The position numbers were made by a program, and so were the translations under genes. Source: Paenibacillus sp. sptzw28 (GTDB lineage: Bacteria > Bacillota > Bacilli > Paenibacillales > Paenibacillaceae). Taken from it: a DNA stretch of 64,000 bases. This document shows positions 21,887-30,544 of the stretch, in pieces. Positions within the stretch are counted from its first letter, which is position 1. Each line of letters begins with the position of its first letter. The stretch is taken from the NCBI RefSeq assembly GCF_019550795.1, contig NZ_CP080545.1:2127501-2191500 (forward strand). Reading direction: 5' to 3'. The notes beneath the pieces are model-generated. The model saw only the letters and a list, made by a program, of their open reading frames with translations. It searched no databases and was not told where the DNA came from.

Positions 21887-23044
21887 ATGATCAGAGGAGT
21901 GCTGAACAAATACTACGTTATAATATCGCTGCTGCTTATTTTGTCCCTGAAGGGCTCCTCGCACGAGCTGCCGGCTGCCGAGATGTTGAAGACAGCGTTT
22001 AACCCGCCCATTGTCAGGGGGTTCAATACGAGTGCCTTCGGTGATCTGCAAAGGGTGAAGGATGTATTCGGAGCCAATGTCGTCAGGCTGCAGCTGACAC
22101 CCCGGACGGAGGCCGCCAATAGGGGAGTTTCCATCAAGGTTGCTTGGGAAAATCAACTGAATAATATGGAAATGGCTTTGACGGAAGCCGTTCGGGGAGG
22201 AATGTACGTCATTATCGATTTGCATGAGCCTCCAATAGCCGACGCAAGCCTGAAAACAACCTCGGATGCTTTTTGGAACAACGATGCCAATTTGCAAATC
22301 CTGATCGACAGTTGGAAAGAGATGGCACAGCGGTTCGAACCATATCGCGACAATATTTGGGGCTACGATCTCTTAAACGAGCCTTATAATGCTTCGGAGC
22401 TTCCACTGGGCGCGGTTAAATGGCCTGATTGGGCGCAGCAAATCGTCGATGGAATCCGAATATACGACAAGCAAACTCCGGTTATTTACGAAGCCAGTCC
22501 CGGCGCACTTACGAGAGCGTTCATCGAGAACCGGAAATGGCAGCGAAAGGGATATTTTCAGCTCCTTAACGATGACAAAGTGATTTATAGCGTTCATATG
22601 TATAACCCTCTGAGCTACACGCACCAAGGACTTTCAACCTTCAATAAGGCGCCGGTCACGACGGAATGGCCCGACAAATCCACCTATCCGGGCGTCATAA
22701 ACGGTGAAAAATGGGATAAAAACAGGCTGCTTCGCGATTTACAGCCTGTAATTGATTTTCAGAACAAATATCACGTCCCGATTTACGTCGGGGAATTCAG
22801 CGCGATCCGCTGGGCTCCAGGCGCAGCACAATATACCCTCGACTTGATTGACATTTTCGAGCAGCACGGGTGGAGCTGGACCTATCATGCATATAAGGAA
22901 TGGCACGGCTGGGATGTCGAATACAATGACGTCATGACCAGCGATGCGAACCGTGCAGCGGCGAAAGCGACGGAACCGACGGAACGGGAGCTCATTCTCA
23001 AAGCCAATTTCAGTAAGAACAAGTTTCTTCCGCCGAAGCAGTAA
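21887..23044 (+). CDS. Secreted glycoside hydrolase family 5 (endoglucanase type)
   Basis: Retaining endo-beta-glycanase (385 aa) of the GH5 cellulase family. A hydrophobic N-terminal helix (about residues 8-22) serves as a signal peptide or anchor. The barrel shows VRLQLTP, YVIIDLHEPP, acid-base Glu165 in LLNEPYN, VHMYNPLSYTH, and nucleophile Glu303 in VGEFSA, followed by SWTYHAYKEWHGWD. ATG 21887 has no strong ribosome site. It sits before exopolysaccharide-type genes, so it could trim or process the cell's own polysaccharide as well as cellulose-like substrates. Confidence 0.88.
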   Translation: MIRGVLNKYYVIISLLLILSLKGSSHELPAAEMLKTAFNPPIVRGFNTSAFGDLQRVKDVFGANVVRLQLTPRTEAANRGVSIKVAWENQLNNMEMALTEAVRGGMYVIIDLHEPPIADASLKTTSDAFWNNDANLQILIDSWKEMAQRFEPYRDNIWGYDLLNEPYNASELPLGAVKWPDWAQQIVDGIRIYDKQTPVIYEASPGALTRAFIENRKWQRKGYFQLLNDDKVIYSVHMYNPLSYTHQGLSTFNKAPVTTEWPDKSTYPGVINGEKWDKNRLLRDLQPVIDFQNKYHVPIYVGEFSAIRWAPGAAQYTLDLIDIFEQHGWSWTYHAYKEWHGWDVEYNDVMTSDANRAAAKATEPTERELILKANFSKNKFLPPKQ

Positions 23045-23080
23045 CGGCGGTACTGCAAGAAACAATAATCACTACACCGA

Positions 23081-23116
23081 ACACAGCAGCCTCTACGGGC
23101 GGCTGTGTTTTTCTTT
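23081..23116 (+). terminator. Rho-independent terminator after GH5 gene
   Basis: ACACAGC plus GCC pair with GGC plus GCTGTGT and are followed by TTTTCTTTTC. Confidence 0.8.
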
Positions 23117-23210
23117 TCCCTGACAAGGAATTCTTACTCTATAAGCATTATATCTAAATATTGGCATATATAGAGGTATTAGAGAGATCCGAACCTTGAG
23201 GGATGGGTAC

Positions 23211-24587
23211 ATGATGAGTATCGCTAAAATGAAAACTGATGCCTTGGAAGGTCAAGTCACGTCTAATAGTCTGATTTCATTTTGCTTTTTTATAGTGATT
23301 ATGACGTTAATGGTTAATGGATCCATACCTCAGCTGCAAATGTTTCTTTTCAACGGCAGCATGGTCATACCCGTTTCGGTGGTAAAAGCTATTGCGGTTA
23401 TCTTAGGCTTCGGCGGTCTGCTGCTGACACTAAGGCGTAAAATCGAGCTTTATACGCCGCTAATGCTATCCTGGCTTTTATTCACGGCATATATTATGGC
23501 TGAAACCGCCCTGCTGCCTTCCCCCGATACGATTGATTCCATAACCTTGGTCGCATCTATCCTCTCGGTTTATTTCTTCATCTTCACCATTCCGTTGGTC
23601 TTGCATTTACGCAACAGCTTACAAGAGAAACAAATTGCAGGAATACTGATATCTCTATTTGTAATTCTGGCGGCTCTGGGAATTGTACAATTTCTCTTAA
23701 ATGAGCCGCTGCTCCCCGTCGTTTCAAATGACTCATCCTTTAAAGTATATTCGTCCAGCTTCCAAGGAAACCAACGGGCATTCTCTTTATTTGAATCGGG
23801 GTACTCCTTCGGTCATTATATAGCAGTTGCGGGGGCGCTTATTCTCCTGATGCCGATGCGAAAGTTCTGGAAATTCATTCTGATTGCGATTGTTATATTT
23901 GCGGGTTATTCAACGCTGACCCGAAATACTTATTTGGAGATAGGGTCCGCCTTGATAGCTGCCCTGATTTTATCTAAGAATAGAAGCAGCGGCTCAGCCG
24001 GTTACATCCTAATGGTTATTAATGCGCTTGCCGGTTTCGCTGTTATGAAATTGGCGCCGATTATATCAGGTTTATTCGGGCAGCTGGATATATTTGATAT
24101 TTATACACATACATCGAGAGTCACCGAATGGGACGGAATCATGCGGAAATGGTTAAGCAGTGACATATATACGGCATTGTTCGGCACAGGACTTACGCAG
24201 GGGTTCGGTTTCAATTATGTGGACAACATGTATCTGGCTGTCGGGGCTCAATTCGGCATTCTTGGCTTAATTGTGTTTGGCTTGCTCTTTATCTCAATGA
24301 CACAGTATGTTTTCAAGCAAGCAGCGATTCGCAAAACCCCTTTAGCGACAGCAATTGCTGCCTTTTGGACTACATTTCCGATAGTAAGCTTTTTCAACAT
24401 ATCGCTTCCACCATATGTTTTCGTGTTTATTATTCTGATAATTGGGAATAAGGGAAGTGAGAGAGCAAGACGGGCTGCAACGAATTTTATGAGCGGGAAA
24501 ATGAAAGCGGTAACTTCTGTTCTGTCTGCAGCCGTTATAATAGGTTCGGTTTTATTTGCAGAACTACTGGCGGAAATCTTAAGATAA
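23211..24587 (+). CDS. O-antigen ligase/Wzy-like membrane protein
   Basis: Polytopic membrane protein (458 aa) with about eleven hydrophobic segments and a large outer loop (about residues 300-350) carrying SRVTEWDGIMRKWLSS and GTGLTQGFGFN, the pattern of the O-antigen ligase/polymerase superfamily. In Gram-positive bacteria these proteins polymerise or attach exopolysaccharide or teichuronic chains. The longest frame opens with TTG 23196, but GAGGGA (23198-23203) fits ATG 23211. It is one of two such proteins in this region; the second is at 26693. Confidence 0.72.
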   Translation: MMSIAKMKTDALEGQVTSNSLISFCFFIVIMTLMVNGSIPQLQMFLFNGSMVIPVSVVKAIAVILGFGGLLLTLRRKIELYTPLMLSWLLFTAYIMAETALLPSPDTIDSITLVASILSVYFFIFTIPLVLHLRNSLQEKQIAGILISLFVILAALGIVQFLLNEPLLPVVSNDSSFKVYSSSFQGNQRAFSLFESGYSFGHYIAVAGALILLMPMRKFWKFILIAIVIFAGYSTLTRNTYLEIGSALIAALILSKNRSSGSAGYILMVINALAGFAVMKLAPIISGLFGQLDIFDIYTHTSRVTEWDGIMRKWLSSDIYTALFGTGLTQGFGFNYVDNMYLAVGAQFGILGLIVFGLLFISMTQYVFKQAAIRKTPLATAIAAFWTTFPIVSFFNISLPPYVFVFIILIIGNKGSERARRAATNFMSGKMKAVTSVLSAAVIIGSVLFAELLAEILR

Positions 24588-24636
24588 AAAGGAATTTCCT
24601 TTGCTGCGTCGAAAGAGGTTTTTGGGAGGTGATGAG

Positions 24637-24852
24637 GTGAAGAAATTTAATGTATGGTTTAAATTCGTTGGTGGCGATTCGGAATCGTTTGATATTGAAG
24701 CCGAGGAATATACAGACATTACCACTCAAATCACTGAAGCTGACAATGGATGGTTCGGTATTAAGGGCAAGTTGATCAATTTGAATAATGTAACACGAGT
24801 TGAAATAACCGAGGCAAATAAAGAGACGTACAAGTCGATCGGCTTCAGTTAA
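24637..24852 (+). CDS. Small hypothetical protein
   Basis: A 71-aa protein, likely a small beta fold: KKFNVWFKFVGGDSESF, then WFGIKGKLINLNNVTRVEI. GTG 24637 follows GGGAGGTGAT with 6-base spacing; the TTG at 24601 that would extend it has no ribosome site. Followed directly by a terminator. No known family recognised. Confidence 0.65.
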   Translation: MKKFNVWFKFVGGDSESFDIEAEEYTDITTQITEADNGWFGIKGKLINLNNVTRVEITEANKETYKSIGFS

Positions 24853-24858
24853 AACAAG

Positions 24859-24880
24859 CACCCTCCGGGGTGTTTTTTTT
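24859..24880 (+). terminator. Rho-independent terminator
   Basis: CACCC-TCCG-GGGTG followed by eight T. Confidence 0.93.
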
Positions 24881-24965
24881 GTGCGGACAAACCATTATTC
24901 AGATCTGACCTTTCTTTCTATCGGATATTGTTAGATTCATTAGTACATTAGTCATAAAAGTAGAC

Positions 24966-24994
24966 TTGAAATGATACTAAATGTATCATATTAT
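24966..24994 (+). promoter_or_regulatory. Promoter with palindromic spacer, copy 1
   Basis: -35 TTGAAA (24966-24971), a 17-base spacer TGATACTAAATGTATCA that is itself a TGATAC-N5-GTATCA palindrome, and -10 TATTAT (24989-24994). Spacing is ideal for the main sigma factor. A repressor dimer on the palindrome would block the promoter. Confidence 0.75.
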
Positions 24995-25123
24995 TTCCTT
25001 ATAATGAAAACATATGGCTTAAATTGGATTCTTCGCAACGAAAAATAGGAATTCGACAACTTAATGGATAATTCCGCGGCTTTTGTCGATAAATGAGCAT
25101 GGTTCAAAAGTAACGAAAAAGAC

Positions 25124-25152
25124 TTGCAATGTTACATAAAGTATCATATTAT
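25124..25152 (+). promoter_or_regulatory. Promoter with palindromic spacer, copy 2
   Basis: -35 TTGCAA (25124-25129), 17-base spacer TGTTACATAAAGTATCA with a partly degenerate left half-site, and -10 TATTAT (25147-25152). It lies about 165 bases before the zinc-ribbon gene and acyltransferase gene. Confidence 0.7.
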
Positions 25153-25330
25153 TTCCTCATATGAAAATATATGTTTAATACGGATGCTGTAAGGGATGTG
25201 TATGCATTTTAAATAGGAATTTAGTTTTAAGGTGTAAATAACCGTTGAGCGTAAATTAGCGACAAAAGTCTTACAAATAAATTCAAATTAATCGCATCAG
25301 ACGTTAATGAGAGGAAGGGCTGAATCCATC

Positions 25331-25534
25331 ATGATAAACGAGTCCTGCGATTCTGAAGATACTTTCAAATGCCCAAAGTGTAAGACGCTTTGGCGAGTTA
25401 AAAGAGATCAGGATGACGAAAATTTTGCTGTTATTATGGGAACTACTGTTGAGTCGGACGATCATTATTGTCCTTCGGGATGCATTAACTTCTTTGGCTT
25501 CAAATTAAAAGGCAAACTTCAACATGTGACTTAA
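25331..25534 (+). CDS. Small zinc-ribbon-like protein
   Basis: A 67-aa protein with FKCPKCKTLW and, about 30 residues later, YCPSGC, a CxxC...CxxxC arrangement typical of a zinc ribbon. GAGGAAGGG lies about 11 bases before ATG 25331; an ATG at 25307 is upstream of that site and unlikely. It is 24 bases before the acyltransferase gene, so they probably share the palindrome-spacer promoters. Role unknown. Confidence 0.65.
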   Translation: MINESCDSEDTFKCPKCKTLWRVKRDQDDENFAVIMGTTVESDDHYCPSGCINFFGFKLKGKLQHVT

Positions 25535-25558
25535 AATTTCCACGAAGGAGGGAGTAAT

Positions 25559-26656
25559 ATGGCAAAAACAATTGAAAGCTGTCTTGTTGATCGAAGGAAA
25601 AACAATTTTGATTTTATTAGGCTTATGGCCGCTTCATTGGTTATTTTTTCTCATTGTTTTCCATTAACTTTACCATCTGAGAATGCTGAAGAGCCTTTAA
25701 TGATTCTATCTGGTGGACAGATTACACTGGGGAATTTGTCCGTTATGATCTTTTTTGTCGTAAGCGGTTTTTTAATCACTCAAAGCTTTGTATATAGTCA
25801 GAACCTTAGAAAATTCCTGATTGCACGCGTATTAAGGATATTTCCTGCGTTACTTTTTCTCATATTGGCGACTGTGTTTATTTTGGGGCCGATTGTTTCC
25901 ACCGGCTCGGTACAAGCTTACTTCTCAAATCCTGAGACATACACATATCTGACCACCATTTTTCTGCACCAATTTGGTGATACCCCCGGATTGCCTTCTG
26001 TATTTGAGACTAATGTTCATGAGGGTGTGGTCAATGGTTCTTTATGGACGCTTGAATATGAATTTATATGTTATCTGGTTGTAGCTTTTATGGGTGTTCT
26101 GAAAATATTGAATAAACCGTTCGCGCTTCTATTGCTTATCGCCTCCATAATAATCTACAATATTCCGCTGGGATTTACGCTCGGGATAGACCTCATTAAG
26201 CACACCGCCTACTTCTTGCAATACTTTTCGGCCGGTATGTTATGTTTTTTATTCAGGGACAAAATTGCAATTAATCATTACTATGCATCGATATCATTTG
26301 TCATATTGGCGGTGTTGACGTTTACTGGCGGAGTCAAAGATGGGCTAATTGTATTTGGAACTTATTTAATTATTTACCTGGTGTTCAATCCAAGCATCAA
26401 ATTAAACAACTCATCTAAGTATGGAGATTTTTCTTATGGCCTGTATATATTTGCCTTTCCAATCCAACAAACAATCACTATGTATTTATATCCTAATATC
26501 AATCCGTACACCGAATTTTTATTAGCCTTACCATTGACACTGCTATGCTCGATTTTCTCATGGCATGTACTTGAAAAGAACGCCTTGAAGCTCAAACCGG
26601 GGAAAGCAAATAATCCTCCGAAGATTCGGGAAGTAAATTTGAAAGTATCGGTTTAG
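25559..26656 (+). CDS. Acyltransferase-3 family membrane protein (OafA/YrhL type)
   Basis: Integral membrane O-acyltransferase (365 aa, about ten hydrophobic segments) that adds acetyl or similar groups to surface polysaccharide. The family signature is near the N-terminus: NNFDFIRLMAASLVIFSH with the conserved His, then FVVSGFLI. SLWTLEYEF near residue 160 is a second hallmark. GGAGGGAG precedes ATG 25559. The codon use is AT-rich. It lies with a Wzy/ligase-like gene downstream and a second acyltransferase convergent to it. Confidence 0.88.
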   Translation: MAKTIESCLVDRRKNNFDFIRLMAASLVIFSHCFPLTLPSENAEEPLMILSGGQITLGNLSVMIFFVVSGFLITQSFVYSQNLRKFLIARVLRIFPALLFLILATVFILGPIVSTGSVQAYFSNPETYTYLTTIFLHQFGDTPGLPSVFETNVHEGVVNGSLWTLEYEFICYLVVAFMGVLKILNKPFALLLLIASIIIYNIPLGFTLGIDLIKHTAYFLQYFSAGMLCFLFRDKIAINHYYASISFVILAVLTFTGGVKDGLIVFGTYLIIYLVFNPSIKLNNSSKYGDFSYGLYIFAFPIQQTITMYLYPNINPYTEFLLALPLTLLCSIFSWHVLEKNALKLKPGKANNPPKIREVNLKVSV

Positions 26657-26692
26657 AGAAATATAGAGCAATTTGGGCAGGGGGTTATATAT

Positions 26693-28099
26693 TTGCAATT
26701 TGGAGGGTATTTAGTTTTAAAACGCTCTACTACCTTGATGTTGACTTTAGCAATTATAGTCGTTTCATATGCGATCACCTTCAACTGGTTACTTGCTCCG
26801 ATTGCGGCTTGCGGAATTGTTTTATTGTACTTGATCAGCAATTTTAAGATAACGCTTGTTTTTGTGCTTTTCGCATCTACTATGAATGGATTAAATATAG
26901 CATCACCGCTCTTAAAGCTGGAAAACGCATCGATATTATTGAGTATTGCAGCAATTTTCCTGTTTGTTACATATAAACGCGGGAAAATGTTTTTAAGCAG
27001 CGAAGTGGCCTGCTTTATTATATTCATAGCTTATAGCTACTATGTATCATCTCGATATAGCCCAGTTTTTGACCAATCCGTGCACGGAATGATACAAATC
27101 ACCATTGCTTTTCTCGGACTTGTTGTAATGCTGCAGCTTAGAAATTACGACTTTCAATCCCAATTAAGTCTGATTAAAGTATATGTGCTCATCAGTGTAC
27201 TGCAAACTATTTACGGTCTGGCCAGTTTTACGGCGTATCGGTTAAACGGTTCGATTCTCGGCGGGCTAATGTTTGGCCAAGGTGCGGAATCCGTCACTTT
27301 GAAGGGCACATTCATTGAAGCGAATCTATTTGGCGCTTTTGTTGCGGTCGGTCTCATTCTTTGCCTTGCCCTGCTCATCAATAAGATGGTTGCTCATGTT
27401 AGGCTATGGTACTTGGCTTCAATTATTTTATTCGTCGGACTGGTTTTTAGTTGGACGAGGTCGGCTTGGATCGGTTTTGCTCTTGCGTTGGCGGTGATGG
27501 CAGTCTATAACTTTAGGAGCTTCTTAAACCCCAAAACAGTCGTTCGCTTAGCAGTAACTTTAACGCTTATCGTTGTACCGTCGTTTCTTCTTATTCAGAA
27601 TCAGTTTGATCATGTTTCGGGAGAAAACGGTCTGTTCATCTCAAAGTTAAGTCATCTATTTGACCATACCAGCGGCACCGGAGGATATCGCGTCCAACAA
27701 TTCAACTCTGCCCTGGATGATGTTCAAGGTCATGAGCTGCTGGGTAAAGGTTACTATTCGATTAAGGTATACGGTAGCACGGCATGGATCTCGAACATGT
27801 ATTTGTTTATTTACCACGACACCGGGATAGTAGGCTGCATCATATTCTTCCTAGTCATCTTGAGCATCATGATAAAGGGGGTACGTGGCATTAAAAGAAC
27901 CCGGGACAAGCAAAGAAAAATTATGATTACAGCTTTGCTGTCCGGGGCCTTGTTATATTTATTCAGTTTCAATTTCACGCCCGGCCATACCCTATCGATG
28001 TTTTGGATCCATTTAGGTTTACTCCTTGCAGTTGCAGGAAACAGCAGAGAAGAAGAGATGCCGGACAAACCGGTCATAAGAGTCAAGGAAGAGATGTGA
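26693..28099 (+). CDS. O-antigen ligase/Wzy-like membrane protein
   Basis: Polytopic membrane protein (468 aa, about eleven hydrophobic segments). Features of the ligase/polymerase superfamily are FSWTRSAWIGFALAL, the segment LKGTFIEANLFGAFVAVG and a long outer loop ending in GHELLGKGYYSIKVYG. TTG 26693 follows GCAGGGGG. Start is 36 bases after the acyltransferase, so it is cotranscribed. It probably polymerises or transfers the glycan that the acyltransferase modifies. Confidence 0.78.
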   Translation: MQFGGYLVLKRSTTLMLTLAIIVVSYAITFNWLLAPIAACGIVLLYLISNFKITLVFVLFASTMNGLNIASPLLKLENASILLSIAAIFLFVTYKRGKMFLSSEVACFIIFIAYSYYVSSRYSPVFDQSVHGMIQITIAFLGLVVMLQLRNYDFQSQLSLIKVYVLISVLQTIYGLASFTAYRLNGSILGGLMFGQGAESVTLKGTFIEANLFGAFVAVGLILCLALLINKMVAHVRLWYLASIILFVGLVFSWTRSAWIGFALALAVMAVYNFRSFLNPKTVVRLAVTLTLIVVPSFLLIQNQFDHVSGENGLFISKLSHLFDHTSGTGGYRVQQFNSALDDVQGHELLGKGYYSIKVYGSTAWISNMYLFIYHDTGIVGCIIFFLVILSIMIKGVRGIKRTRDKQRKIMITALLSGALLYLFSFNFTPGHTLSMFWIHLGLLLAVAGNSREEEMPDKPVIRVKEEM

Positions 28100-28118
28100 A
28101 TGTAAAGGAAAAGAAAGA

Positions 28119-28148
28119 AATGAGGCGCAGCTCATTCTGCGCCTCATT
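28119..28148. terminator. Terminator between convergent genes
   Basis: AATGAGGCGCAG (28119-28130) and CTGCGCCTCATT (28137-28148) form a perfect 12-bp stem with a 6-base loop. The A-rich left flank becomes a T-rich tail on the minus strand, so it ends the minus-strand acyltransferase mRNA and may also stop the plus-strand one. Confidence 0.82.
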
Positions 28149-28172
28149 CGAAATAATACGTGATGCCGTTAA

Positions 28173-29273
28173 TTATGCGGATTCATAGCTGGTACGAGTA
28201 ATTTTTCGATTGGATTTTTTTGATTTTATTGTATTCACTCTGCCGACGATGTACTTTCCAAAACTGAATTTATTCAATAACCATGAAGACCATATTGATA
28301 AAACGGTACTTGCTACAAATAGGGCTGCAATGATTGTGAAGTTAGTTATTTTAAAGCGAGCGCATAGATCAGTTAGAACAACGACATAAAAAACGTGAAG
28401 AAAATATATACTGAACGAATAGTTGTTAATGACTAACCAAATTCTTGATGCTTTACGGTCTTTGAACAGATATAAAAGGGCCAGGATCATACTAAGTGTA
28501 AAGGGTATCATATCGATTCTTTTGGAACTGTTAAGCGTAATCACGTCAAAGTTGTACAGACATGCGACCAGTGCGCCGGTGATAATGGGTGCCGTCAGAA
28601 CCGCAATTTTATGACTCACAAGAAAACGTTGGATTTGCTCATAATTATTTCCCATCCATACCGCTACAGCAAAATAGGCAAGCCATCCGGGAAAAGGTAT
28701 CCATGATAATCTGTACCACAGCAAATCACCTGATATATCTAAAAATGGAGTGAATTTCGGCGAATCAACGAGATTGAAAACTGCGAGATACAAAATATTA
28801 ATGAGGAATGAGAAAGACAAAAGCTTCTTGTAACCAATTGGATATTTGGTCCACAGCCAATACAGTGCGAAGAACTGAAAGATGATTAAAAGAAAATAAC
28901 CGTGATACCCTCCATAGAACAAATTATGAAATGTGTAAGACTTCACCGATCTATTCTCCGTACCATAAATATGGAAAACGATACCGAAGAAAAATGCCAT
29001 TGATACATAGGGTATAAGTATGTACTTTATTCTTTTTTGAAAAAAACCGACCGGAAGCGACTTTTTATAATTATACGCAAGCAGAAATATCGAAATAAAG
29101 ACAAAAGCCGGGGTGCCAAACTTCAGAATAACAACTATTGTTTCAGCAAGAGTTTTATAATTGTCAATGTCGGATACTCTTTTTCTGAACTCTTCAATAG
29201 AATGCAGCAGAACAATGCTTAAACAGGCTATCACTCTTATAAAAATCATTTCTTCCGATCTTTTTTCGCTCAT
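28173..29273 (-). CDS. Acyltransferase-3 family membrane protein
   Basis: Membrane acyltransferase (366 aa, about ten segments) of the acyltransferase-3 group; MIFIRVIACLSIVLLHS carries the conserved Arg and His. It resembles the poly-N-acetylglucosamine O-succinylase-like and YfiQ-like branch, not OafA, given the weak VSGFLI motif and the WYRLSWIPFPGWLAYF segment. AGGGGG precedes its ATG. It reads toward the ligase-like gene and has the third palindrome-spacer promoter upstream, so the two convergent transcripts appear to be under one regulator. Confidence 0.85.
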   Translation of the reverse strand: MSEKRSEEMIFIRVIACLSIVLLHSIEEFRKRVSDIDNYKTLAETIVVILKFGTPAFVFISIFLLAYNYKKSLPVGFFQKRIKYILIPYVSMAFFFGIVFHIYGTENRSVKSYTFHNLFYGGYHGYFLLIIFQFFALYWLWTKYPIGYKKLLSFSFLINILYLAVFNLVDSPKFTPFLDISGDLLWYRLSWIPFPGWLAYFAVAVWMGNNYEQIQRFLVSHKIAVLTAPIITGALVACLYNFDVITLNSSKRIDMIPFTLSMILALLYLFKDRKASRIWLVINNYSFSIYFLHVFYVVVLTDLCARFKITNFTIIAALFVASTVLSIWSSWLLNKFSFGKYIVGRVNTIKSKKSNRKITRTSYESA

Positions 29274-29363
29274 GGGCTCCCCCTCTTATATCATTCTAAA
29301 ATAAATAATATTCCATCTTCCTCCCCAAAGTTAGCCAATACACATTTCTGGATGACTAGTGAA

Positions 29364-29392
29364 ATAATATGATACATTTTGTATCATTACAA
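29364..29392 (-). promoter_or_regulatory. Promoter with palindromic spacer, copy 3
   Basis: Read on the minus strand: -35 TTGTAA (29392-29387), a 17-base spacer TGATACAAAATGTATCA (a perfect TGATAC-N5-GTATCA palindrome), -10 TATTAT (29369-29364). It drives the minus-strand acyltransferase starting at 29273. Confidence 0.75.
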
Positions 29393-29453
29393 GTGAAATT
29401 GGAACTATTCCATTCCTTTGATTTACAATCGTGGAACTCAAGTCATGTAATGT

Positions 29454-29609
29454 TTAATGGTCTGCATCGGGTTCATCCGCCATTTCGTTTTCCGGCTGTG
29501 TATATGCAACCAGTACAATATTTTTACCTGTGTCAGTTGACAAATCTTGCTCATACTGCCGAAGCTGCTTTAAAGCCTCTGAAGAGAGGTCGGCTGTTTT
29601 GTATTCCAT
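29454..29609 (-). CDS. Small hypothetical protein
   Basis: A 51-aa protein beginning MEYKTADLSSEALKQLRQ and ending DEPDADH. ATG 29609 follows GAGGGTGATT, a good ribosome site. The N-terminal half is predicted helical and the tail acidic. The palindrome-spacer promoter of the acyltransferase gene lies 60 bases after its stop. No family recognised. Confidence 0.65.
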   Translation of the reverse strand: MEYKTADLSSEALKQLRQYEQDLSTDTGKNIVLVAYTQPENEMADEPDADH

Positions 29610-29725
29610 TTAATCACCCTCTATTTTTGATTTATTTTTGTTTTGAACCGGAATTAGTATCGGTACATTTATGAATAAAAATACATAAGGTGGATATGTA
29701 TGTCCGGAAAATTATCATCGGGACA

Positions 29726-29751
29726 ACAAAAAAGCTCCCGTGTACGGGAAC
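29726..29751 (-). terminator. Minus-strand terminator
   Basis: On the minus strand GTTCCCGT and ACGGGAGC (29751-29734) form a stem with one mismatch and are followed by six T. It ends the small membrane protein mRNA. Confidence 0.75.
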
Positions 29752-29810
29752 TTGTATTCAAGCTGACGCTATTCAACTCAGCAGAGACCTGGCTGTTATC
29801 GCTTTAACTT

Positions 29811-29963
29811 CTACCAGCGTCGCAGGCCATTTACTCCGAACGCAACTCCTGCCACCGTCAGCGCCAAGCCTATTATTTTGTTCAGGAATATGATGTCGAT
29901 CACGCCAAAGATGATAAAAAAGACCCCAACTACGCATAGTAATAGCGGATTTTGTTGTTTCAA
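29811..29963 (-). CDS. Small membrane protein
   Basis: A 50-aa protein with two hydrophobic segments: LLLCVVGVFFIIFGVIDIIF and IIGLALTVAGVAFG, joined by LNK, with a C-terminal LRRW. It starts with TTG after GAGGTG. A longer overlapping open frame in another phase (29773-30009) has no such coherent features. Its own terminator follows. Function unknown. Confidence 0.68.
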   Translation of the reverse strand: MKQQNPLLLCVVGVFFIIFGVIDIIFLNKIIGLALTVAGVAFGVNGLRRW

Positions 29964-30035
29964 GAGGCACCTCGTCCATTAGGTTATATATACCCGCAAA
30001 TCGTACCACAGCTTGTCCCGAAAATATACCGTCTC

Positions 30036-30374
30036 TTATGGCCGAATCGTAACGCGTGTTCGAATAGGCACCAGGTTCGCGAGAGTTACAACATCGTTAT
30101 TGTACATCCGGACACAGCCCCGTGAAACCCGCCTTCCGATCGAGGAAGGATCGTTTGTACCGTGAATGCCATAATGAGGTTTTGATAATCCCAGCCAGAA
30201 CGCCCCGTACGGCCCCCCTGGATTCTCCTGCTTGTTGATGATAGTGAATTCGCCGGAGGGCGTCTGTGTGAGCATTTTGCCGATGCCGACCGGGAAGCCG
30301 CGCACAACAGTGTTGCCATCCAGTAAATATAATTGTTTGTCTGAGAGATCGACAATGATTCGGTACTTGGGCAT
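30036..30374 (-). CDS. L,D-transpeptidase, YkuD family
   Basis: Catalytic YkuD domain only (112 aa), which forms 3-3 crosslinks in peptidoglycan or attaches proteins to it. [15 protein letters not shown] opens the domain, and [19 protein letters not shown] followed by CVRM contains the catalytic His and Cys of the HxxG...SxGC motif. The longest frame begins with GTG 30383, but that GTG is inside the AAAGGAGTG ribosome site; ATG 30374 with 8-base spacing is preferred. No signal peptide or LysM domain, as in several Bacillus spore-cortex YkuD-like proteins. Confidence 0.9.
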
Positions 30375-30544
30375 GATGTTCACTCCTTTATATATGGTAT
30401 GTGAAATAGTGCCGCTGTTTCAATATATGGGCTCATATTCCCCTCACAATGAATTAATATTAATAAAACAAGATATATGTTGTGTATTAAATATTAAATA
30501 TGATACATTATTTGTAGAAGAAGGTAGTTTTACTACATAAGGGA

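Follow-up and report, generated by a model that had tools for sequence, protein, structure and literature searches.

We analysed a 64,000-nucleotide stretch of DNA from the soil bacterium Paenibacillus sp. sptzw28 (contig NZ_CP080545.1, positions 2,127,501 to 2,191,500; hereafter the window), in which three predicted housekeeping-sigma promoters, P1 to P3, frame an island of genes related to surface polysaccharide. In each of them the -35 and -10 hexamers lie 17 bp apart and a dyad fills the spacer, the common design being TTGNAA, then TGATAC-N5-GTATCA, then TATTAT, with the half-site TGTTAC in P2. The features are as follows, in window coordinates.

24966..24994, + strand: P1 promoter, -35 TTGAAA, 17-bp spacer TGATACTAAATGTATCA, -10 TATTAT
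24972..24988: operator 1, TGATACTAAATGTATCA, an exact palindrome occupying the whole P1 spacer
25124..25152, + strand: P2 promoter, -35 TTGCAA, 17-bp spacer TGTTACATAAAGTATCA, -10 TATTAT; a probable copy of P1
25130..25146: operator 2, TGTTACATAAAGTATCA, with the half-site TGTTAC
25307..25534, + strand: small zinc-ribbon-like protein encoded first in the P1/P2 unit; the open reading frame has 75 amino acids, or 67 if counted from the ATG at 25331, and contains two CPxxC-like motifs
25559..26656, + strand: acyltransferase (PF01757)
26693..28099, + strand: Wzy/O-antigen ligase-like protein (PF04932)
28118..28149, - strand: terminator-like hairpin between the convergent genes
28173..29273, - strand: convergent acyltransferase (PF01757)
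29364..29392, - strand: P3 promoter, -35 TTGTAA, 17-bp spacer TGATACAAAATGTATCA, -10 TATTAT
29370..29386: operator 3, an exact palindrome whose core, GATACATTTTGTATC, equals the consensus quoted for the PBSX repressor Xre (see below)

An earlier note on this DNA had described these three elements, and we confirmed them at 24966 (+), 25124 (+) and 29392 (-); a simple promoter scan recovered P1, P2 and P3, each with a spacer of 17. Note that in 23000-30500, where 22.2 promoter-like sites would be expected, the same scan gave 30; the hexamers by themselves therefore carry little weight. Copies 1 and 2 can be aligned over ~50 bp, flanks outside the motif included, and probably go back to one local duplication; because they are alike beyond the motif, the window offers about two independent instances. 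The variation among the three copies, which had been taken as a sign of selection, is thus a weak argument, and the case for constraint rests on other genomes.

In the window, the palindrome occurs six times at ≤2 mismatches, compared with a mean of 1.70 and a maximum of 5 in 100 shuffles. With the half-sites written as TGNTAC/GTANCA, all three copies are exact, and four sites are found at ≤1 mismatch where 0.85 are expected (1 of 100 shuffles reaches four). The exact palindrome is present eight times in the 6.1-Mb genome, against expectations, computed from the composition of the window and not of the whole genome, of 0.19 (Markov) or 0.37 (base composition); the probability of eight or more is 4e-11 or 6e-9, respectively. 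Within the genus, 21 of 22 genomes (this one included) carry it, at 85 sites versus 1 for the reversed pattern; 79 of these sites are tabulated and two more, L009 and L015, were seen besides, which makes 81 in the proximity count given below (L- and G-numbers are our own handles). The earlier note had suggested scanning this and related genomes for the complete 29-base design: at ≤3 mismatches, it is found here at P1-P3 only and elsewhere at 14 places in 12 of 58 genomes, the reversed control giving zero in our genome as across all 59. The pattern TTGNNATGATACN5GTATCATANNAT, searched in genome_contigs (84,980 species), gave only six stretches, from Paenibacillus, Thermobacillus and Cohnella, and so the operator is less variable than the promoter hexamers. 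Across the class, the bare palindrome was detected in 55 of 200 genomes, N5 being scattered in those listed from outside the family.

Overall, these sequence statistics show the spacer-palindrome motif to be genuine, with good support for constraint on it. It is barely credible that P1-P3 owe their palindromes to chance or to repeats and have no function: copies 1 and 2 do share flanks and the region is AT-rich, but the genome and genus counts with their near-empty controls, together with the reappearance of this layout among relatives (see below), speak against it. The concern that the motif might be frequent and unrelated to promoters does not apply to this genome; it does to some exact sites of congeners, which lie in a repeat of genome G013 or in coding sequence. 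The G013 repeat consists of five near-identical copies (L075, L076, L077, L079 and L080) containing TGATACCAAAGGTATCA, one of them with AAGG, whose flanks are alike and which are not promoters.

Two of the eight exact sites in the genome lie within the window, and the six others are distributed as follows, in genome coordinates.

2,936,763: upstream of an XRE gene (XRE2)
3,562,491: upstream of an asparagine-synthase-type gene
4,963,431: upstream of a solute-binding protein gene
4,973,026: upstream of a PilZ protein gene
4,974,618: upstream of an LCP protein gene
5,007,194: between the exopolysaccharide (EPS) operon (CpsB/CapC, Wzz) and the gene of a small XRE protein, EPS-XRE

Four of the eight are ≤50 kb from the EPS-XRE gene, compared with 0.13 expected. 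The EPS promoter of this genome reads TTGACA-TGTTACGTTCTGTATCG-TAAAGT, and the exact operator is found 35 bp further downstream. The link to surface polysaccharide is supported. The eight exact copies in the genome and the 85 sites in the genus lend no support to a repressor that serves the island alone, nor is the idea of a single repressor dedicated to the acylated glycan supported: the operator is genome- and genus-wide, at EPS, lasso-peptide-type and XRE genes, and two XREs fit it. On sequence grounds, the dedicated repressor probably yields to an Xre-type regulon that spans the genome and has EPS at its centre.

Two proteins encoded in the EPS locus are 60-63% identical to the asparagine-synthase-type protein, and against the lasso cyclase model NF033535 the three score 380-412 bits, under the cut-off of 525. 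A PqqD protein encoded between the EPS-locus asparagine-synthase-type genes scores 133 bits with lasso_PqqD_Bac (cut-off 80). Lasso-type genes for ribosomally synthesized and post-translationally modified peptides (RiPPs) occur both inside the EPS locus (L034:4834-19009, ~4.975-4.989 Mb) and outside it (L038:3432-7435, ~3.558-3.562 Mb); between them, these two stretches also contain ABC, sulfotransferase, HPr-kinase-like and Transglut_core3 genes. Near-operators, TGCTACTATNTGTATC, are present upstream in the lasso-type region at L034:11421 and L034:19037.

As the earlier note had stated, no regulator is adjacent to the window sites. Two proteins encoded elsewhere in the genome are candidates.

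Genome 5,007,357: EPS-XRE, a small XRE protein (HTH_3) of 122 amino acids beside the EPS operon, helix ISRAALSHYE
Genome 2,936,357: XRE2, a small XRE protein (HTH_3) of 109 amino acids with the operator in its own promoter, helix ITRSAYSHYE (TR, not SR)

Each was found in all 22 genus genomes. EPS-XRE has four matches in its own genome at E ≤ 1e-4, itself among them, and a third XRE of this genome (L049, helix SQYE) has no upstream operator. Elsewhere, EPS-XRE homologs come, among the matches listed (120 of 660), from Paenibacillus, Cohnella and a Paenibacillaceae bacterium, under generic names. Counting as an operator any site with ≤2 mismatches in the 350 bp before an XRE gene, we found one at EPS-XRE in 21 of 22 genomes of the genus and in 6 of 8 beyond it, at XRE2 in all 22 genus genomes, and at 6 of 39 of the remaining XRE matches (genus plus G022), five of these six being of SHYE type. 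When genes are pooled by recognition helix (L212, which has no XRE match, and L050, the fourth match in this genome, left out; L187, an XRE2 ortholog, counted as SHYE), the operator accompanies 54 of 59 SHYE genes versus 1 of 32 with other helices (Fisher 6e-18, a value inflated because orthologs are not independent); with the EPS-XRE and XRE2 orthologs removed, the figures are 4 of 6 versus 1 of 32 (P 0.001). The structure model of EPS-XRE, confident for the helix-turn-helix half only, places the SHYE residues within the recognition helix, residues 29-36. Two SHYE genes without the operator, L186 and L210 (SRSTLSHYE), have a GTTACN5GTAAC palindrome upstream instead, possibly a variant operator specificity.

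Many regulator families use dyads of this size, and the binder cannot be named from sequence alone. It is nonetheless quite improbable that a different family binds the palindrome and that its location upstream of XRE genes is incidental: the correlation between helix and operator across XRE paralogs and phages argues against this, as does the consensus quoted for PBSX Xre in an excerpt of PMC4243335, GATACATTTTGTATC. The zinc-ribbon protein, put forward in the earlier note as a possible regulator, is unlikely to be one. Neither Pfam nor NCBIfam gave a match to it at E ≤ 0.001, and of 145 other genomes searched a single one has a homolog (2 of 146 counting our own), beside which no operator (≤1 mismatch) and no similar neighbour genes were seen within 3.1 kb.

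Beside the EPS-XRE genes of relatives, the layout of P1-P3 recurs. On the strand that points away from EPS-XRE, a -35, an operator and a -10 stand in register at 26 of 30 loci, against 1 of 30 on the opposite strand, under lenient limits (-35 at least 4/6, -10 at least 3/6, operator ≤3 mismatches), L151 being a weak case. Of these 26 promoters, 25 have a spacing of 17 and ten have the form TTGACN-TGTTAC-N5-GTATCG-TAAAGT. Since 13 of the 26 operators carry the TGTTAC half-site, its presence in operator 2 need not be decay. This recurrence supports the joint sigma-factor/repressor layout proposed for P1-P3. The gene facing the promoter is CapC, Wzz or a tyrosine kinase at 15 of the 30 loci and another EPS-locus-type gene at ≤370 bp at five more. 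A register test took 74 exact sites, without the five G013 repeat copies, in both orientations (148 in all); promoter pairs peak with the operator inside the spacer, 18 at spacer 18 and 7 at spacer 17, whereas the 300 placements average 0.3. Most of the 18 are XRE2 orthologs sharing one promoter, whose spacer is 18 bp. That spacer and the poor -35 boxes of P1-P3 could suggest that XRE activates these promoters, for example by aiding polymerase at weak TTGNAA boxes. We regard this as very improbable, as an operator filling the spacer is expected to exclude polymerase and the EPS promoters of relatives have a consensus TTGACA.

Genus-wide, 24 of the 81 sites, in 13 genomes, lie ≤50 kb from an EPS-XRE gene, where 1.16 are expected. 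Among the 79 tabulated sites, 19 have an XRE2 ortholog downstream (L053 and L064 included) and 25 a polysaccharide or RiPP gene as first neighbour. These 25 comprise 18 recognised by comparison with named genes of our genome (five of which are its own sites matching themselves, one being that of the window zinc-ribbon gene), six recognised by Pfam (acyltransferases at L058, L063 and L097; glycosyltransferases at L091, L115 and L122) and L021; for the remaining first neighbours, 20 genes of our choice were compared with Pfam. At L065 (G009), one of the 18, the neighbour is a lasso PqqD exceeding its cut-off. Hcp-like (PF05638) proteins are encoded next to exact operators in two congeners (L110:1392-2018 and L117:1424-1972), and DUF5658 proteins next to operators at L067 and L106.

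The operator class and the repressor family are already known kinds. Xre, the repressor of the defective prophage PBSX of Bacillus subtilis, and its operators were reportedly described by McDonnell and McConnell in 1994. Copies 1 and 3 match the PBSX operator core GATAC-N5-GTATC exactly, copy 3 letter for letter, and copy 2 has GTTAC; the repressor is likewise a small HTH_3 protein, and the helix type of this class, SRxxxSH[YF]E, is that of EPS-XRE and, with TR, of XRE2. Unlike in PBSX, the XRE genes here stand at EPS and sugar genes and, so far as we could see, not in any prophage immunity region; the operators in turn appear to serve polysaccharide and RiPP genes genome-wide. As EPS-XRE lies beside CpsB/CapC and Wzz, what it shares with PBSX Xre is the operator class, and it is not a prophage repressor. 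In viral contigs (a redundant set in which some stretches are short), TGATACAAWWTGTATCA was found in 60 stretches, with an XRE ≤600 bp away in 22, of which 16 have the helix SRARYSH[YF]E; viral repressors with this helix and several operator sites we take to be PBSX-like. The repressor of Lactobacillus phage phig1e (X90510, gp132/Cpg) has the helix SRARYSHLE and seven operator-like sites (≤2 mismatches) in 3.6 kb, sites which, unlike those studied here, belong to a phage lysogeny region. They presumably correspond to the so-called GATAC-box, a name used by no paper in our literature search. Phage PBP180, whose XRE has a different helix, shows no operator site in 2.9 kb. The use of this class as a chromosomal EPS regulon was not found in the portions of the open-licence literature searched, and no XRE regulator of EPS in Paenibacillus or Cohnella is named in the titles and abstracts searched.

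By fold, the nearest neighbours of EPS-XRE are arbitrium-phage repressors and ImmR, SinR ranking lower. ImmR of ICEBs1 (7t8i) is the closest solved sequence (E 3e-14) and has the helix NNLSNYE where EPS-XRE has AALSHYE. SinR of B. subtilis, which regulates biofilm EPS, resembles our candidates as a small XRE with operators at EPS genes and is a structural neighbour of EPS-XRE (1b0n, 3zkc); its binding site differs from the palindrome described here. SinR/SinI was rejected as the regulator in this genome, where no protein with the SinI domain PF08671 was found (the B. subtilis control was positive); nor is PF08671 listed in EPS-XRE at E ≤ 0.001. Such proteins do occur elsewhere in the genus, in 7 of the 15 genomes searched, and the chromosomal XRE may therefore act beside SinR in other genomes. 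EPS-XRE and XRE2 could also form a pair of the SinR/SlrR kind, both binding the operator and antagonising each other or heterodimerising, so that EPS would be under a bistable switch whose balance the island follows. The two paralogs, with near-identical recognition helices and upstream operators, both present in every genus genome, would suit such a pair, as would SinR being among the structural neighbours of EPS-XRE; their C-terminal halves, modelled at low confidence, differ, and we consider it unlikely.

We think it likely that P1-P3 are housekeeping-sigma promoters with a spacer operator of the GATACN5GTATC class, read by EPS-XRE and/or XRE2, which would repress the island with the EPS and lasso-type genes. 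An XRE dimer bound between the -35 and the -10 would exclude RNA polymerase sterically. With XRE bound, the EPS operon, the lasso-type clusters and the zinc ribbon, acyltransferase, Wzy and convergent acyltransferase genes of the island would all be silent, and its withdrawal would turn on island, EPS and RiPP genes. Operators 1 and 2, 158 bp or ~15 helical turns apart, could loop the DNA, although this is speculation. The binding protein, repression over activation and co-expression are all putative assignments that we infer from sequence. We see in the island an accessory glycan module that appears to have been connected to a resident regulon.

Several observations weigh against this repression by an XRE, besides the inflation of the pooled P value. 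Two XREs, EPS-XRE and XRE2, fit the operator and are indistinguishable from each other in this respect. The SHFE genes L204 and L205, near to SHYE, have no operator and are among the 32 genes with other helices. The TTGNAA boxes of P1-P3 are weaker than the TTGACA of relatives. At the 30 EPS-XRE loci, the EPS-type gene facing the promoter is >1.2 kb off in four cases and none was recognised in six. In addition, for 35 of the 79 tabulated genus sites (among them the G013 repeat, sites inside coding sequence and those at other genes such as the Hcp-like and DUF5658 ones) the first neighbours that we examined include neither XRE2 nor any gene of polysaccharide or RiPP type, and 38 of the 60 viral operator stretches have no XRE match.

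More tentatively, and at somewhat less than even odds, a pair of prophage-immunity type (the PBSX Xre class) may have been co-opted in Paenibacillus and Cohnella as a matrix master switch, replacing SinR or acting beside it and co-controlling lasso/LPP RiPPs, with new glycan modules joining through a spacer operator. The operator provides candidate EPS regulators for these genera, a target site for mutagenesis, and a set of genes expected to move together. Paeninodin/LPP RiPP clusters have been reported in polysaccharide loci of Bacilli (PMC13381572), like the lasso-type clusters within the EPS locus here. In the portion of that paper available to us, lppB, pbaB1 and an EPS gene of P. alginolyticus go up synchronously in stationary phase, the roles of the lasso/LPP peptides are called unknown in its discussion, and, unlike in the system proposed here, no shared regulator or operator is named. 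A shared operator, if true, would explain this synchronous RiPP and EPS induction.

Concerning the island itself, its Wzy protein is 34% identical to a paralog in the EPS locus and has no match at E ≤ 1e-20 across the other 21 genus genomes. The GC content is 0.36-0.44 at 25-30 kb and 0.48-0.57 to the right; on the left side the dip is gradual, since 17-25 kb is already at 0.40-0.51. Upstream of the island, window 21887-24587 encodes a GH5-type cellulase and a 463-amino-acid membrane-like protein without Pfam or NCBIfam match. Between P1 and P2 lie two sites, TTGTCGAA (25052-25059) and TTGTCGAT (25083-25090), presumably resembling the Spo0A box (TTGTCGAW). Spo0A control through them was rejected, the window containing 10 such boxes against 6.15 expected, a count matched by 8 of 100 shuffles. 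Finally, a one-mismatch palindrome, TGATACATAGGGTATAA, is found at 29001-29017 within the convergent acyltransferase gene, probably by chance.

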